Below are positions 13,283 to 21,286 of a stretch of 25,448 nt of DNA, piece after piece. Source of the stretch: a virus; IMG/VR virus record IMGVR_UViG_3300036978_000392, positions 1-25,448 of that record, one strand, 5' to 3'. The stretch's first letter is position 1; the number at the start of each line of letters is the position of its first letter. The translations under genes and the position numbers were made by a program. A model generated the notes under the pieces. That model was not told where the DNA came from. It was given only the letters and a program-made list of their open reading frames with translations, and did no database searches.

Positions 13283-13909
13283 TTACTCGATTATGCTGCA
13301 TGTTGTGTGGATCGGGAGCAAGAAACGCCATTTTTTCTTGATGTATTCTTCCGCTATTGAATAGTCTGGTGGTAAGGATACCAGTGTTGAATTGTGCTCA
13401 CAGTATGCATCTATCACGTAATTCCACATTATATGTTGATTGGATTGTAAACAAATATCAGCGCCAAACAAATGATGGTTTGGGATATTCTCGTCAAAGG
13501 TTATTTTCTCGCATGTTGATTTTTTCATGACAAGTAATAGCTCGTCAAGGGTATCAACTATGCTTGGCTTCTTATCTTTTGACCTTAGCAGATTACCCCG
13601 ATCTAATACATTATATGAGTATATCGAGCCAAACCTACCGGCTACCCCTAAAACACCCCAATTATCATCCCCTAATTTATGGATTGAATATTCGAGATCC
13701 CCGAAGAATGATTCAGGCAAATAGACATCCTGATGAACAAATATGATGATATCCTCAGTGCACTTTTTGACAGCTTCGTTATAAGCCACGCACGGCTTTG
13801 TGTGTCCCATGACGATATGTAAATCATGCTCTTTGATGTTTGGTGATCTACGCAAGTTATCTAATAGAGTTGTTGTGCTATTGCACGCGCAAACAATTGA
13901 AAAACGCAT
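13283..13909 (-). CDS. StrF-like GT-A glycosyltransferase
   Basis: This 208-residue protein reads MRFSIVCACNSTTTLLDNLRR, then VAYNEAVKKCTEDIIIFVHQDV and YLPESFFGDLEY, followed by GVLGVAGRFG, in pieces. The FVHQDVYLP motif (His59, Asp61) and downstream GVAG are the signature of the StrF-like branch of family 2 glycosyltransferases, where the Asp-containing motif binds metal and nucleotide sugar. It is soluble, with no membrane segment. Spacing to neighbours is 2 and 3 bases. It probably works with the GT-B-like enzyme next to it; the substrate cannot be read from sequence. Confidence 0.72.
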   Translation of the reverse strand: MRFSIVCACNSTTTLLDNLRRSPNIKEHDLHIVMGHTKPCVAYNEAVKKCTEDIIIFVHQDVYLPESFFGDLEYSIHKLGDDNWGVLGVAGRFGSIYSYNVLDRGNLLRSKDKKPSIVDTLDELLLVMKKSTCEKITFDENIPNHHLFGADICLQSNQHIMWNYVIDAYCEHNSTLVSLPPDYSIAEEYIKKKWRFLLPIHTTCSIIE

Positions 13910-14233: not shown

Positions 14234-14686
14234 TTAAATATCCTTTACTGCTTTCATTATAGCGACGACATGGCAAACACCGTTTTGATCGTATTCGGTT
14301 GTTGCAAGACTTAATATATCAAACTTTGGTTTGATGTCATACAAAGCCCTGTGTATATCACATGCGAAGTAATGAAATGAATTTTCATTCCAAAAAGAAT
14401 AGTGCGTAGGGTCTTGAAAAGCACCACGGCCATCAGTTGACGGGGTGAATGATAAGAATAGACCACCGGGCTTTAGAATACGCCAAATCTCAGTCATGAT
14501 ATGTATTCGCTTGTGGTTATCAATGTGCTCCAAGAAGTCCGATGCATTTATCTCATCAGCGATATTGTCATCAAGAGGGATCGGATTGTTGCAATTGCAT
14601 ACGAGATCTACCCCGTCTAGCTCTTGGCAATCGATTCCAAAGTAGCCTATTTTTTTCCTGCGTCCACAACCTAAGTCAATGTTCAT
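14234..14686 (-). CDS. SAM-dependent methyltransferase (class I)
   Basis: The protein has 150 residues. Motif I is MNIDLGCGRRKKIGYFGID; the acidic turn VDLVCNCNNPIPLDDN follows. Next comes ASDFLEHIDN (motif II-like), then EIWRILKPGGLFLSFTPSTD and GAFQDPTHYSFWN. These are usual in methyltransferase domain proteins of phages and of glycan or lipid methylation loci. There is no DPPY/NPPY, so DNA N-methylation is unlikely. It lies one base after the Acb2/Tad1-like gene and just before the exported protein. Given two glycosyltransferase genes next to it, a sugar-methylating role is a fair guess, not shown. Confidence 0.75.
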   Translation of the reverse strand: MNIDLGCGRRKKIGYFGIDCQELDGVDLVCNCNNPIPLDDNIADEINASDFLEHIDNHKRIHIMTEIWRILKPGGLFLSFTPSTDGRGAFQDPTHYSFWNENSFHYFACDIHRALYDIKPKFDILSLATTEYDQNGVCHVVAIMKAVKDI

Positions 14687-14900: not shown

Positions 14901-16766
14901 TCACCATTCTACAATTGGTATTGCTTGACACCGACAGTTTGAAACTATAGTATCACCTGCAAGATACAGGTTAGATTCAGTCTCTAAATTATATACATTA
15001 CCGGAGTATTCTTCATGAGTAATTGTCCTAAAGGTTGCGAGTGTAAAAGGCATAAAGATTCTTGGAACAAAAAATATCTGCCTACCAAGGATATCATCCA
15101 AATGTACAAATCTGGTAATAGCGAGAATATCGTCGCTAAAAAGTTTAATTGCGCAAGAGGAACCATTAGAAGAATTCTCAAAGAGAATCATGTCACCATC
15201 AGAAATCAAAGTTCCGCTGAAAAACTTAAATGGGATAGGATGGATGCTATCACTAGGAGCAATCAAGTTAAAGCCTGTCATGCTGCTACCATTAGCCGGG
15301 AAGTGCCAATCAAAGAGGCCATTCGACGAGCTAAGTCTTTGGAAAAAACTGGAGGGAGAATCGGAAAAGGAGAGTATATTCTCGCTGATATTTTTAGGGA
15401 AAATAACATCAGTTTTAGTCATCAAGCTGCTGTCCATACTTACAATGTTGACTTCCTCATTGGTTCCATCGCCGTGGAATTGAATATTGGAACCGTCTAC
15501 CCTGACAGAAGGAAAACTGATAGCAAAAAAATCATGCACTTCCTTAATGAAAACCGATCTATTATTTATATCTTGTGTAGGGATATTAGCTTTATCAGGG
15601 GAAAGCCTCTCAAAGACTTGATCGGAATCATTAATGAACTGAGCTGGAACCCATCCTCTAAGAGTAAGTATTGGGTGATTCGGTGTTGTCTTGATCCTAA
15701 TCGTTCCAGTGTCGAGAGTTATGATCTTGCCGACGTAATGACGGTTATACGATCTGATTGGAATGCCGATAGTTGATATTGGAGTATCTCCCACAAAACA
15801 ATTAAAATCCATTCCTGCGTGAGCTGTTCTGCCTGTCTTTGGATCGACAATTGGGGGCCGATCCCAATCAATTTCGTCATTATTCAATTCAGCATGGCTT
15901 TGCCTTACTTTATGATCCCCTACAGTTTTCCATTTATACTTGTCAATGCCATATTGCTGATATTGAGATTTTTTAAATGTTGTGACCAATAGTGCAGTTT
16001 CTTGCCTTGCGATGAATTTACATCTTTGATGGCTTATTCCAAGCCTCTTTTGAATGGCATTACGGAGATCCACCCTTGAGCTCCCAGACAGTATCATGTC
16101 GCTGATATCCGTTCTTAGCCTCTCCACGACTTCCTGCTCGAAATCCTCTAAAACAGCTTTTGTTTGGTCCTCAAACTCATGCAATAGTTTCTTGCGTATC
16201 GGGAGCTCAATAGTGGTCAAATAATCCTTGCTGATCTGTTCGAGCCCTTCAACACTGAGTTGTGGAGCAACACCAAGGTTCTTGCGAATGATCTGCTTGA
16301 ATTCCTTTGACACCCTATCGAGATTTGTTACACCCATGCTTTGGATTGACATGTTTTTGACAAACGAGGATGTCTTACCAACCATGGTATCGAGTTTTTT
16401 TGTCAGGGATTCACTGAGAGCCTTCATTGTTTTGACGTTGTAATCAATTGCTCTCTTTAAAACGAAAGGCATTCTGTGTTCAGGTAGATGCCAGTTACCA
16501 CGCTCAAATTTTCCACCCAAGCCCTTTATCTCTTTTGAGATTGAAGCCGATATCTGACCGCTGAATTTACCATCCTTGTATTGAATCTTCCCATCCTTTA
16601 GATACCGCTCTAATAGTGTGTCCTTGGCGTTATCAAGCCTCTCTTTGTTGACATCCACTAGCAGAGGATAAAATACAGACTGATATAAAATCATTGAAAG
16701 ATAACCGGCTAATTCAGCATGCCATGTGTCTTTGTAGATGATCGGCTGGAGTATTTTCTTTGGCAT
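14901..16766 (-). CDS. MuF-type head morphogenesis protein with an embedded intein
   Basis: The 621-codon frame has a helical N-terminal part, then the MuF/SPP1 gp7 domain: RCKFIARQETALLVTTFKKS, YKWKTVGDHKVRQSHAELN, and PPIVDPKTGRTAHAGMDFN. In ordinary members that region ends with a CRC.A.P motif. Here the motif is interrupted after MDFN by 288 residues that begin with Cys323 and end with Asn610, followed by CRCQAIPIVEW. Splicing would restore a 333-residue protein. It overlaps the portal stop by one base (TAATG). MuF proteins are minor head proteins near the portal, possibly ejected. Because only 11 residues follow the intein, an unspliced protein would lose just its conserved C-terminal motif. 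Confidence 0.88.
   Translation of the reverse strand: MPKKILQPIIYKDTWHAELAGYLSMILYQSVFYPLLVDVNKERLDNAKDTLLERYLKDGKIQYKDGKFSGQISASISKEIKGLGGKFERGNWHLPEHRMPFVLKRAIDYNVKTMKALSESLTKKLDTMVGKTSSFVKNMSIQSMGVTNLDRVSKEFKQIIRKNLGVAPQLSVEGLEQISKDYLTTIELPIRKKLLHEFEDQTKAVLEDFEQEVVERLRTDISDMILSGSSRVDLRNAIQKRLGISHQRCKFIARQETALLVTTFKKSQYQQYGIDKYKWKTVGDHKVRQSHAELNNDEIDWDRPPIVDPKTGRTAHAGMDFNCFVGDTPISTIGIPIRSYNRHYVGKIITLDTGTIRIKTTPNHPILTLRGWVPAQFINDSDQVFERLSPDKANIPTQDINNRSVFIKEVHDFFAISFPSVRVDGSNIQFHGDGTNEEVNIVSMDSSLMTKTDVIFPKNISENILSFSDSPSSFFQRLSSSNGLFDWHFPANGSSMTGFNLIAPSDSIHPIPFKFFSGTLISDGDMILFENSSNGSSCAIKLFSDDILAITRFVHLDDILGRQIFFVPRIFMPFTLATFRTITHEEYSGNVYNLETESNLYLAGDTIVSNCRCQAIPIVEW
14925..14951 (+). promoter_or_regulatory. 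Candidate sigma70 promoter for the antisense endonuclease
   Basis: TTGACA (14925-14930, perfect -35) is followed after 15 bases by TATAGT (14946-14951, five of six matches to -10). The spacer is shorter than the ideal 17. The -35 lies opposite the C-extein CQ codons and the -10 inside the intein, so the promoter straddles the splice junction. Transcription would start about 50-60 bases before the endonuclease ATG and run antisense to MuF. A weaker alternative is TTGAAA 14939-14944 with GATACA 14963-14968. Confidence 0.4.
15003..15006 (+). promoter_or_regulatory. Ribosome binding site of the antisense endonuclease
   Basis: GGAG lies eight bases before the ATG at 15015. A good plus-strand site is not needed by the minus-strand protein (it falls in the block F codons for Tyr and Ser), so its presence at proper spacing supports translation of the plus-strand gene. 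Confidence 0.6.
15015..15776 (+). CDS. Homing endonuclease-like protein encoded antisense inside the intein
   Basis: This 253-residue protein runs opposite to every neighbour from 1 to 22031 and lies wholly inside the intein. It has a metal-finger-like motif C4-x3-C8-x-C10-x2-H13 (CPKGCECKRH), familiar from phage homing endonucleases. A helix-turn-helix follows at about residues 26-60 (DIIQMYKSGNSENIVAKKF then GTIRRILKENHV). The nuclease core at about 119-210 is Vsr/PD-(D/E)xK-like: GEYILADIFRENN with Glu120, YNVDFLIGSIAVELN with Asp146 and Glu155, then KKIMHFLNENRSIIYILCR. Codons align exactly with those of the intein on the other strand. GGAG lies eight bases upstream. The call as a nuclease is confident; its target, presumably the intein-free MuF gene, is inferred. 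Confidence 0.82.
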   Translation: MSNCPKGCECKRHKDSWNKKYLPTKDIIQMYKSGNSENIVAKKFNCARGTIRRILKENHVTIRNQSSAEKLKWDRMDAITRSNQVKACHAATISREVPIKEAIRRAKSLEKTGGRIGKGEYILADIFRENNISFSHQAAVHTYNVDFLIGSIAVELNIGTVYPDRRKTDSKKIMHFLNENRSIIYILCRDISFIRGKPLKDLIGIINELSWNPSSKSKYWVIRCCLDPNRSSVESYDLADVMTVIRSDWNADS

Positions 16767-18163: not shown

Positions 18164-18850
18164 TTAAAGTATTAGTTTTTTATAACTTGTCGTACATTGC
18201 CTTGAACATGTCTGTCTTGTTTGATACTTGTTTACTTCAAATTCTTTACTACAAAATTTACATATTCTATTGACGTTATCTACCCCTGATTCTCTCCTAT
18301 TTGCACTTACACATATTCTTGAGCAAAATTGATTGGCATGGTCATGTCGTGTTGTTTTAAATTCTTTACCACAAAACAAGCAATTTTTAGTAATTGGAAC
18401 AAAATTTATATACGATAATTTTGCTATTCTTTTATGAAACCCTTGCCCTTTTGGGGAATCCCTAAACTCTCTGGAAATTCTTGTATTGGTTGCGATACCC
18501 TCTTTAGTAGAATGCCATGCTGTTGCGGCTGGTCGGATATCAGCAAGATGCTTATTTTGCTTTTCAAGTTTTTCCATACTCCATGGATGCTTTTTTATAT
18601 GTTCTTTTGCTGTGAGCATTTCAAGGTTTTCAATTGAATTATTTGCTGGATTACCGTCGATATGATGTATATGCATTTTGTCTGGTATTTTGCCGTTATA
18701 AAATTCCCAAACTTCCCTATGCATCGAAATGCGTACTCTTTTTAAATTTGTTTGTTCTCTCCTATAAAAATATAACCTTGAATTTTTGCATCCGGGTTTT
18801 GGTATTCTTGTATATTTTTTACCATTCCATTCTATTACTTCTTGTGTCAT
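18164..18850 (-). CDS. Free-standing HNH homing endonuclease
   Basis: The 228-residue protein starts with a segment like HNH_3/NUMOD-associated endonucleases (WNGKKYTRIPKPGCKNSRLY; MHREVWEFYNGKIPD). It has the HNH core MHIHHIDGNPANNSIENLEML (His62, His63, Asn71, Asn75), split here by position only. Two zinc ribbons follow: C157-x2-C160 with C176-x3-C180, and C197-x2-C200 with C215-x3-C219. It sits between terL (12 bases away) and the portal gene and is markedly more AT-rich than both, as expected of a mobile gene. The target is probably a neighbouring gene such as terL or portal in related phages. Ribosome binding is weak (GAAAG). Confidence 0.85.
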   Translation of the reverse strand: MTQEVIEWNGKKYTRIPKPGCKNSRLYFYRREQTNLKRVRISMHREVWEFYNGKIPDKMHIHHIDGNPANNSIENLEMLTAKEHIKKHPWSMEKLEKQNKHLADIRPAATAWHSTKEGIATNTRISREFRDSPKGQGFHKRIAKLSYINFVPITKNCLFCGKEFKTTRHDHANQFCSRICVSANRRESGVDNVNRICKFCSKEFEVNKYQTRQTCSRQCTTSYKKLIL

Positions 18851-20431: not shown

Positions 20432-21286
20432 TTAACCCTCTTTTTTTAGTATTTGTCTTAATATCATTGGTACTGCTGCCTTCCAGTTAATTGAATGATG
20501 TAACCTTGCGTTCGAAGTATTCATTAATTTTACTGTTACACACGACGGTGAATACATGACGGAGTAAAAACTTTTAACGTATGTCCCAGAATCTAAATAT
20601 AGGTCTGTCATACCACCTTTATTTTTTTGAGTTTGTACCTGAGACAAAGCCACATGATTAGTCGTGAGCAAAATCAATCCACGGCTTGCGGTATTGGTAT
20701 AAGTATTCACATCTTCATTGATCCGACCAACGAACTTGAATGGCCTGTCGGTGGAGCATAAAAAAGAATTCATACATTTTCTAGTCAACATGATGTTTTT
20801 TGCATATTTTCCTTTTACGCCGCCGATATAATCCCCATTTTGAGCCATCGCAATCGATGAGATATTTGTACTTTTATAAAAATCAAGTAGTGCACAGAAT
20901 ACCTTATCCAAATTTTTTTTGATTCTAACCTCTTTGTAATCACCCTTTTGATCAAACTTGAAATAAAATGCTTGATAATCATCATCAAGCTGAATGAAAT
21001 ATTTTATCCCTAGTTTTTTTGCTATTTCAAAGCTTGCGTTGCGAGCATATATGATAGCTCTCATATCATTGAAATTATCCCCCTGATCGAAGGTCTCTGC
21101 TATCTCCTTTTTATTAAAAATTATAACTTTATCGCCATATTTTTTAAGATACTCATCTCTCGTCTCATCCATGTTATCTATTATGATGTAAATTTTACCA
21201 GTGTACCCACATTTTTTTAGTGTGTGATAGGTTTTTACCCTATCCGGTCTGCCATGAGTTAGAATAAACGCAGCAAAATCATTCAT
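20432..21286 (-). CDS. GT-A glycosyltransferase, resembling phage TET-associated (TAGT-like) family
   Basis: The 284-residue protein starts FAAFILTHGRPDRVKTYHTL (residues 4-23). IDNMDETRDEYLKKYGDKV follows, then ARNASFEIAKKLGIKYFIQL and DDD (101-103), the metal-binding motif. Later parts include GRINEDVNTYTNTASRG and DSGTYVKSFYSVMY. This pattern resembles phage glycosyltransferases that I associate with DNA base hypermodification, often near ParB-like genes. It overlaps the ParB-like gene by 8 bases and precedes the terminase, so modification of DNA before packaging is one idea. No modified-base biosynthesis gene is visible in the window. A protein or glycan acceptor remains possible. Confidence 0.62.
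   Translation of the reverse strand: MNDFAAFILTHGRPDRVKTYHTLKKCGYTGKIYIIIDNMDETRDEYLKKYGDKVIIFNKKEIAETFDQGDNFNDMRAIIYARNASFEIAKKLGIKYFIQLDDDYQAFYFKFDQKGDYKEVRIKKNLDKVFCALLDFYKSTNISSIAMAQNGDYIGGVKGKYAKNIMLTRKCMNSFLCSTDRPFKFVGRINEDVNTYTNTASRGLILLTTNHVALSQVQTQKNKGGMTDLYLDSGTYVKSFYSVMYSPSCVTVKLMNTSNARLHHSINWKAAVPMILRQILKKEG

Follow-up and report, generated by a model that had tools for sequence, protein, structure and literature searches.

A phage capsid gene holds an intein with an endonuclease gene on its opposite strand

The window analyzed here is the whole 25,448-nucleotide (nt) stretch of virus record IMGVR_UViG_3300036978_000392. Its minus strand carries a 621-residue MuF minor capsid gene that contains an intein (Phage_Mu_F, SPP1 gp7-like; positions 14901 to 16766; PF04233, 3e-13; TIGR01641, 5.8e-12), and its plus strand carries a 253-residue endonuclease gene (15015 to 15776) that is antisense to the intein and shares its codon register. 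The N-extein comprises MuF residues 1 to 322 and ends in GMDFN (15801 to 16766, minus strand). It is followed by a class-1 intein of 288 residues, counted from Cys1 to the C-terminal Asn (14937 to 15800, minus strand), which sits 5' of the Cys in the MuF CRC motif, and by the C-extein CRCQAIPIVEW, led by Cys+1 (14904 to 14936, minus strand). An original prediction made from the letters of the window had placed the plus-strand open reading frame within the minus-strand one, with its ATG opposite His584 and its stop opposite Ser331, and these coordinates, frames, and register proved exact. As argued below, we consider it very probable that the intein at this locus is mobile and that its homing endonuclease is encoded by a gene of its own, which runs antisense to the intein and shares its codon register.

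An open plus frame in this register forbids TTA, CTA, and TCA on the minus strand, and none of these codons is found in the overlap, where the intein has 16 Leu codons and 30 Ser codons, as had been noticed earlier. Given the codon usage of the window, in which TTA and CTA make up 34.5% of Leu codons and TCA makes up 30.9% of Ser codons, the chance of this absence is 1.7e-8; the reverse calculation, starting from the endonuclease, gives P = 3.7e-7. Because stop-creating codons are avoided at these probabilities, the double open frame is not a product of chance. Among the other window genes that were scored, the longest in-register antisense open stretch was 118 codons.

The minus frame encodes a class-1 intein

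All four splicing blocks that had been proposed were found in the minus frame: block A, CFVGDTPIS (15774 to 15800); block B, TTPNHPILT (15663 to 15689), which faces the C-terminal part of the endonuclease; block F, NVYNLE (14982 to 14999), which reads HVYNLE in relatives; and block G, SN|C. Features of class-1 inteins recur among 51 aligned loci, with Cys1 in 50 of 51, the terminal Asn and Cys+1 in all 51, and a TPNH block B that is under strong intein-specific constraint, T39 and N41 being near-invariant and H42 invariant. A profile of the intein family matched solved inteins, the Mycobacterium tuberculosis (Mtu) RecA intein being the best match (E = 2.8e-9), and the predicted HINT fold matched the RecA intein with a Z score of 12.4 and a root mean square deviation of 1.4 across 106 residues. 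Based on this full set of motifs and the predicted fold, the intein would be expected to splice itself out of MuF.

No in-frame endonuclease domain of the canonical type was found between blocks B and F. Instead, intein residues 127 to 244 (15069 to 15422, minus strand) form a predicted disordered loop (predicted local distance difference test [pLDDT] score, ~35) that has neither a domain nor conservation of its own and that faces endonuclease residues 19 to 136.

The plus frame encodes a Vsr-like endonuclease

The endonuclease model had a mean pLDDT of 88 and an architecture in which a helix-turn-helix leads through a helical linker to a nuclease. The predicted helix-turn-helix DNA-binding domain spans residues 24 to 57 (15084 to 15185, plus strand), and the predicted Vsr/EDxHD-like PD-(D/E)xK nuclease core spans residues 116 to 224 (15360 to 15686, plus strand); both had been recognized in the original prediction, and domain searches, the model, and structure matches all agree with it. 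E120, Y143, N144, D146, and E155 are invariant across 45 endonuclease sequences. The remote-homology search that had been suggested matched the plus-strand protein to a homing endonuclease and to Vsr: a profile search found the catalytic domain of I-Bth0305I (E = 5.7e-6), and a structure search with the model found Vsr (Z = 12.1) and I-Bth0305I (Z = 11.4). The endonuclease profile places the E and AxEV motifs against PDB entry 3r3p, a match to the EDxHD enzyme at the level of motifs. A C-x3-C-x-C-x2-H motif that had been pointed out is indeed present, but it lies in a low-confidence N-terminal stretch (pLDDT, ~50) and is not kept in relatives. We therefore rejected its interpretation as a zinc finger.

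Both proteins are under selection, mostly in alternating stretches

Strand-specific tests of selection had been proposed to establish whether both frames are truly coding. We shuffled the synonymous codons of one protein, keeping its sequence, to obtain the shadow similarity expected in the other frame, using 51 dereplicated loci with the exteins as a single-coded control. When the intein and the endonuclease were aligned separately, the median share of codon pairs on which the two alignments concurred was 89%. The median pairwise z was 5.05 for the intein given the endonuclease and 7.8 for the endonuclease given the intein, versus 0.10 for the extein control (0.04 in identity-matched pairs). 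The antisense protein is thus selected above the shadow of the sense protein, and we rejected a spurious antisense reading frame. Both proteins are conserved, selected families.

Along the DNA, stretches constrained by one protein mostly alternate with stretches constrained by the other. Where the intein faces endonuclease residues 25 to 147, z was 0.44 for the intein and 7.1 for the endonuclease; opposite residues 148 to 182, the values were 2.3 and 4.9; and opposite residues 183 to 253, where intein blocks A to B lie, they were 5.3 and 1.9, with intein constraint prevailing opposite residues 203 to 253. Strong selection on both strands is limited to ~35 codons (endonuclease residues ~148 to 182). 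Double constraint peaks where the intein motif FHGDG (15465 to 15479, minus strand) exactly faces the catalytic motif of the endonuclease (S-I-A-V-E in the window and x-V-A-V-E in the family), with z values of 12 to 22 for the intein and 4 to 26 for the endonuclease. FHGDG is conserved above what the endonuclease demands. The original prediction had held that only one strand would be truly coding if the minus strand showed no purifying selection between blocks B and F. The loop shows no detectable selection of its own apart from staying open; the intein facing endonuclease residues 148 to 182 is selected.

The positions of substitutions also reflect both frames. Since nine divergent endonucleases were too diverse for pattern scans, sub-clade alignments were used. 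In the Guernseyvirinae (13 sequences), extein substitutions favored sense position 3 (position 1/position 3 ratio, 0.17 to 0.37), whereas the ratio in the loop was 2.35, sense position 1 being position 3 of the endonuclease. The ratio was 0.90 in the block A-B region, where both rates were low, and 0.17 where the intein extends beyond the endonuclease. A Fisher test of loop against extein gave P = 8e-15, the sites being those of related sequences and so incompletely independent. Gordonia phages, an unrelated group, repeated this flip, with position 1/position 3 values of 0.0065/0.129 in the extein and 0.160/0.103 in the loop, as did the pairs L062-L069, L033-L067, and L037-L075 (L numbers denote individual loci).

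Predicted expression signals of the endonuclease lie in intein blocks G and F

Read on the opposite strand, block F HVYNLE is TTCGAGGTTATAAACATG, which supplies a Shine-Dalgarno sequence and a start codon. Codon choice in this block is skewed accordingly: the His codon, which supplies the ATG of the other strand, is CAT in 40 of 42 cases (P = 1.6e-12 versus extein usage), and the Leu codon, which supplies GAGGT, is CTC in 30 of 43 (P = 5e-12). Sigma-70-like promoters were found upstream, with a mean best score of 8.43 across 49 loci versus 7.15 (standard deviation, 0.25) under a synonymous-codon null. Four loci, two of them near-identical, have perfect 12/12 TTGACA/TATAAT matches, and the -10 boxes cluster mostly at +9 or at +26 to +28 relative to the intein edge. 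In the window, a candidate antisense promoter, TTGACA-17-TAGTAT (14925 to 14953, plus strand), has its -35 element in the C-extein and its -10 element in the intein, and a Shine-Dalgarno-like GGAG (15003 to 15006, plus strand) lies 8 nt upstream of the endonuclease ATG. Since a promoter, ribosome-binding site, and start codon of its own lie in blocks G and F, the endonuclease is likely expressed independently of the capsid operon.

The antisense arrangement is kept across relatives

A tblastn search with the plus-strand protein matched 117 of 50,697 phage records, and further relatives were found in contigs binned as Actinobacteria, Firmicutes, Gemmatimonadales, Alphaproteobacteria (Phaeospirillum and Rubellimicrobium), Solirubrobacterales, and cyanobacteria. 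The family is large and occurs in phages of many bacterial phyla. Both frames are open in nearly all endonuclease relatives, including loci of 33 to 41% GC. An unbiased search with the sense (intein) profile yielded at least 568 confirmed relatives, of which the best 80 were examined; the antisense endonuclease was found in 80/80 of these viral inteins, each with an E value of 2.7e-25 or better. Thus, when homologous inteins were collected as had been proposed, the antisense frame was kept in essentially every relative, and homologous inteins with a plus frame full of stops, which had been named as the case that would undo the prediction, were sought among the relatives and not found. The exceptions were L061 and L062, whose endonuclease has a single internal TGA, and L024, which is apparently frameshifted; an apparent stop in L058 was rejected as an interruption, being the natural end of its endonuclease.

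The insertion site is identical in the 51 aligned loci, 5' of the Cys in the MuF C-R/C-x motif. Of 10 host genes checked, 8 matched MuF or phage minor capsid families, some of them fused to portal or other domains; of the other two, L055 matched portal alone, and L049 had no Pfam match. Gene calling is uneven: among the deposited phage regions inspected, the antisense frame is annotated at full length in PK2 alone, as a "hypothetical protein." In LC507823, a 402-nt "hypothetical protein" (L095, 1697 to 2098, plus strand) overlaps the antisense region, beside a minus-strand open reading frame within the MuF gene. In the Salmonella phage records MZ560703, OQ507916, and MZ955866, MuF is annotated as "NAD+--asparagine ADP-ribosyltransferase," which is probably an automatic misannotation.

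One site carries or lacks the element, which moves horizontally

When a Salmonella MuF gene was used as the query, 391 phage records matched, 58 of them over most of the query. Among the matches listed, empty MuF genes were shorter by exactly 816 nt (e.g., 1,041 versus 1,857 nt), which corresponds to a 272-codon intein; Ent1 is an example of an empty site, with PNCRS unbroken. Most Guernseyvirinae MuF genes are of this empty kind. Salmonella Jerseyvirus and E. coli Kagunavirus carry inteins that are ~4% different (4.4% for L083-L091) in MuF genes that are 28% different. These data show that this one site either carries the element precisely or lacks it, and that the element has been transferred horizontally. 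Empty and occupied Jersey alleles differ by ~0.22 to 0.24 per base in the 10 codons nearest the site and by ~0.01 to 0.13 beyond 30 codons, a divergence spike that is as expected if the flanks were co-converted.

A free-standing relative of the endonuclease was found in Acinetobacter Obolenskvirus (L005, 455 to 1348; L096, 2501 to 3394), convergent on an intein-less MuF gene and overlapping its end by 7 nt. The strand opposite this gene is not open. L005 was accordingly rejected as an intein. Judging from their sequences, L061 and L062, in which the intein is intact beside the interrupted endonuclease, represent the decay stage expected for homing elements.

Alternative explanations

Of the alternatives, the best surviving, which we nonetheless regard as improbable, is that both proteins are real but that the antisense one has lost, or never had, a role in the homing of this intein, serving instead in regulation or repair or having become inactive. 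Vsr is itself a repair nuclease, regulators also use helix-turn-helix domains, and the L061/L062 stop sits beside an intact intein. Nevertheless, the invariant catalytic residues in 45 sequences, the single insertion site in 51 loci, the recent horizontal spread, and the free-standing copy adjoining the same target gene all argue against a role other than homing.

It is still less probable, and indeed very unlikely, that the endonuclease alone is real and that the minus reading is a tolerated open insertion in MuF without splicing, as was proposed for the ShiLan element. Such an insertion would explain why the loop facing endonuclease residues 25 to 147 is disordered and shows no intein-specific conservation. 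It would not explain the conservation of Cys1, the TxNH of block B, the terminal Asn, and Cys+1, nor the intein-specific constraint on blocks A to B, the predicted HINT fold, and the exact 272-codon insertion into a structural gene. That the intein alone is real, with the plus frame a chance opening whose similarity is a shadow of intein conservation, can hardly be credited: frames in the same register on opposite strands have their middle base in common, and antisense open frames are frequent in GC-rich genes, but the endonuclease exceeds the intein shadow (z of 7.8 versus 0.1 in the control), substitutions prefer its synonymous sites, its predicted nuclease fold is coherent, its frame is also open at low GC content, a free-standing homologue exists, and codons are biased toward its start and Shine-Dalgarno sequence.

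Several observations weigh against an intein with an antisense homing endonuclease. The penultimate His is replaced by Ser in the window intein (aligned loci: His, 33/51; Ser, 14/51); because active inteins without this His exist, we did not take its absence as disqualifying. In a promoter scan of the window alone, the site at 14925 to 14953 did not exceed chance, and the start/Shine-Dalgarno design of block F is displaced in the window. In addition, ~118 intein residues lie in a disordered loop on which the only selection of its own detected is to stay open, the endonuclease C terminus (residues 183 to 253) is itself weakly constrained (z = 1.9), and the window has no close non-identical relative, so the strand-specific rates come from other clades.

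A proposed mechanism and its implications

We nevertheless favor the mobile intein with an antisense homing endonuclease, and the selection on both strands, the conserved antisense frame, and the endonuclease homology bear out the bidirectional selfish element of the original prediction, with splicing on one strand and homing on the other. In the mechanism suggested by these sequences and models, the minus strand would produce MuF with a class-1 intein that removes itself from the capsid protein, while the plus strand would produce a helix-turn-helix, Vsr-like (EDxHD-type) endonuclease expressed from signals inside intein blocks G and F. The target of the endonuclease would be MuF genes that lack the intein, cleaved at the conserved CRC site or close to it, and repair off the intein-bearing copy would insert the whole element with short flanks. 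Selection on the capsid gene would hold the loop open. The DNA-binding half of the endonuclease is written opposite the disordered intein loop, and the N-terminal blocks of the intein opposite the tolerant C terminus of the endonuclease; the shared stretch may persist because the constraints mostly alternate.

With less assurance, we lean toward the view that these elements form a large, ancient, and undescribed class of mobile inteins, with splicing and homing written on the two strands of the same codons and with the promoter, ribosome-binding site, and start of the endonuclease in blocks G and F. Inteins are usually viewed as one polypeptide holding both splicing and endonuclease domains. 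Here, since the endonuclease would have its own opposite-strand transcription unit, its timing could be uncoupled from that of the late capsid gene, while the host frame would shield the endonuclease reading frame. Whether folded proteins can be encoded by both of two complementary strands is an old question, raised by hypotheses of the Rodin-Ohno type. As a natural and well-sampled case of sense/antisense coding in register, the family bears on this question; if our reading is correct, it would also be one of the clearest examples in nature of complementary strands that encode two conserved, folded, full-length proteins in the same register. It also illustrates that conserved antisense genes escape gene callers.

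Neighboring genes

A free-standing HNH_3 endonuclease gene (18164 to 18850, minus strand; Pfam, 2.8e-17) has portal and terminase on either side; it lies within 3 kb of the intein and is likely a second selfish nuclease. Also located near or among the structural genes are a TET-associated glycosyltransferase (TAGT) gene (20432 to 21286, minus strand; 1.5e-38), a family-2 glycosyltransferase gene (13283 to 13909, minus strand), and a methyltransferase gene (14234 to 14686, minus strand), a combination that suggests DNA hypermodification or virion glycosylation.

Comparison with known systems

In the literature covered, which included reviews of inteins and phage homing, we found nothing on MuF inteins or on antisense endonucleases in inteins; a 2025 preprint on actinobacteriophage inteins of "non-canonical architecture" was outside this coverage, and priority is uncertain. 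Dassa and colleagues are said to have described, in 2009, fractured genes in phage-type sequences that contain split inteins and stand-alone Vsr-like endonucleases. A Vsr-like endonuclease is tied to inteins in both systems, but there the gene reportedly lies between the split halves, whereas in our element no break interrupts the host frame and the codons are shared. Some group I introns in nuclear ribosomal DNA carry antisense endonuclease genes, so that, as here, a self-splicing element has its homing endonuclease gene on the strand opposite that of the host. However, an intron tolerates stops whereas an intein must stay translatable, and double coding is therefore forced in the intein.

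Canonical mobile inteins, such as PI-SceI and TliVMA, contain an in-frame LAGLIDADG or HNH homing endonuclease domain (PMC8966425). The elements described here resemble them in the self-splicing HINT domain (splicing being predicted here), the conserved insertion site, the presence/absence polymorphism, and the horizontal spread (PMC8966425). They differ in that the canonical endonuclease is a same-strand intein domain freed by splicing, whereas here it is a separate opposite-strand gene with its own expression signals. With the EDxHD enzyme I-Bth0305I (PDB 3r3p; PMC3943268), the endonuclease has in common the nuclease fold and a recognizable profile, but I-Bth0305I is intron encoded, whereas the endonuclease here is antisense in an intein and has an N-terminal helix-turn-helix.

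The nearest described case is the ShiLan element, in which an HNH endonuclease is hidden in a phage methylase (Arsenault, Gosselin and Gogarten 2025, PMC11855218). In both, the endonuclease occupies another frame of an insertion that is open in the host frame, the host-frame product is disordered, and the element has spread horizontally. In contrast, the ShiLan endonuclease is on the same strand as its host gene, is of the HNH type, and has neither a splicing domain nor a detectable ribosome-binding site, whereas the endonuclease here is antisense and Vsr-like, with a complete intein and with promoter and ribosome-binding sequences. Given that the endonuclease is on the opposite strand and a complete intein is present, we rejected a ShiLan-type insertion as a description of this locus.
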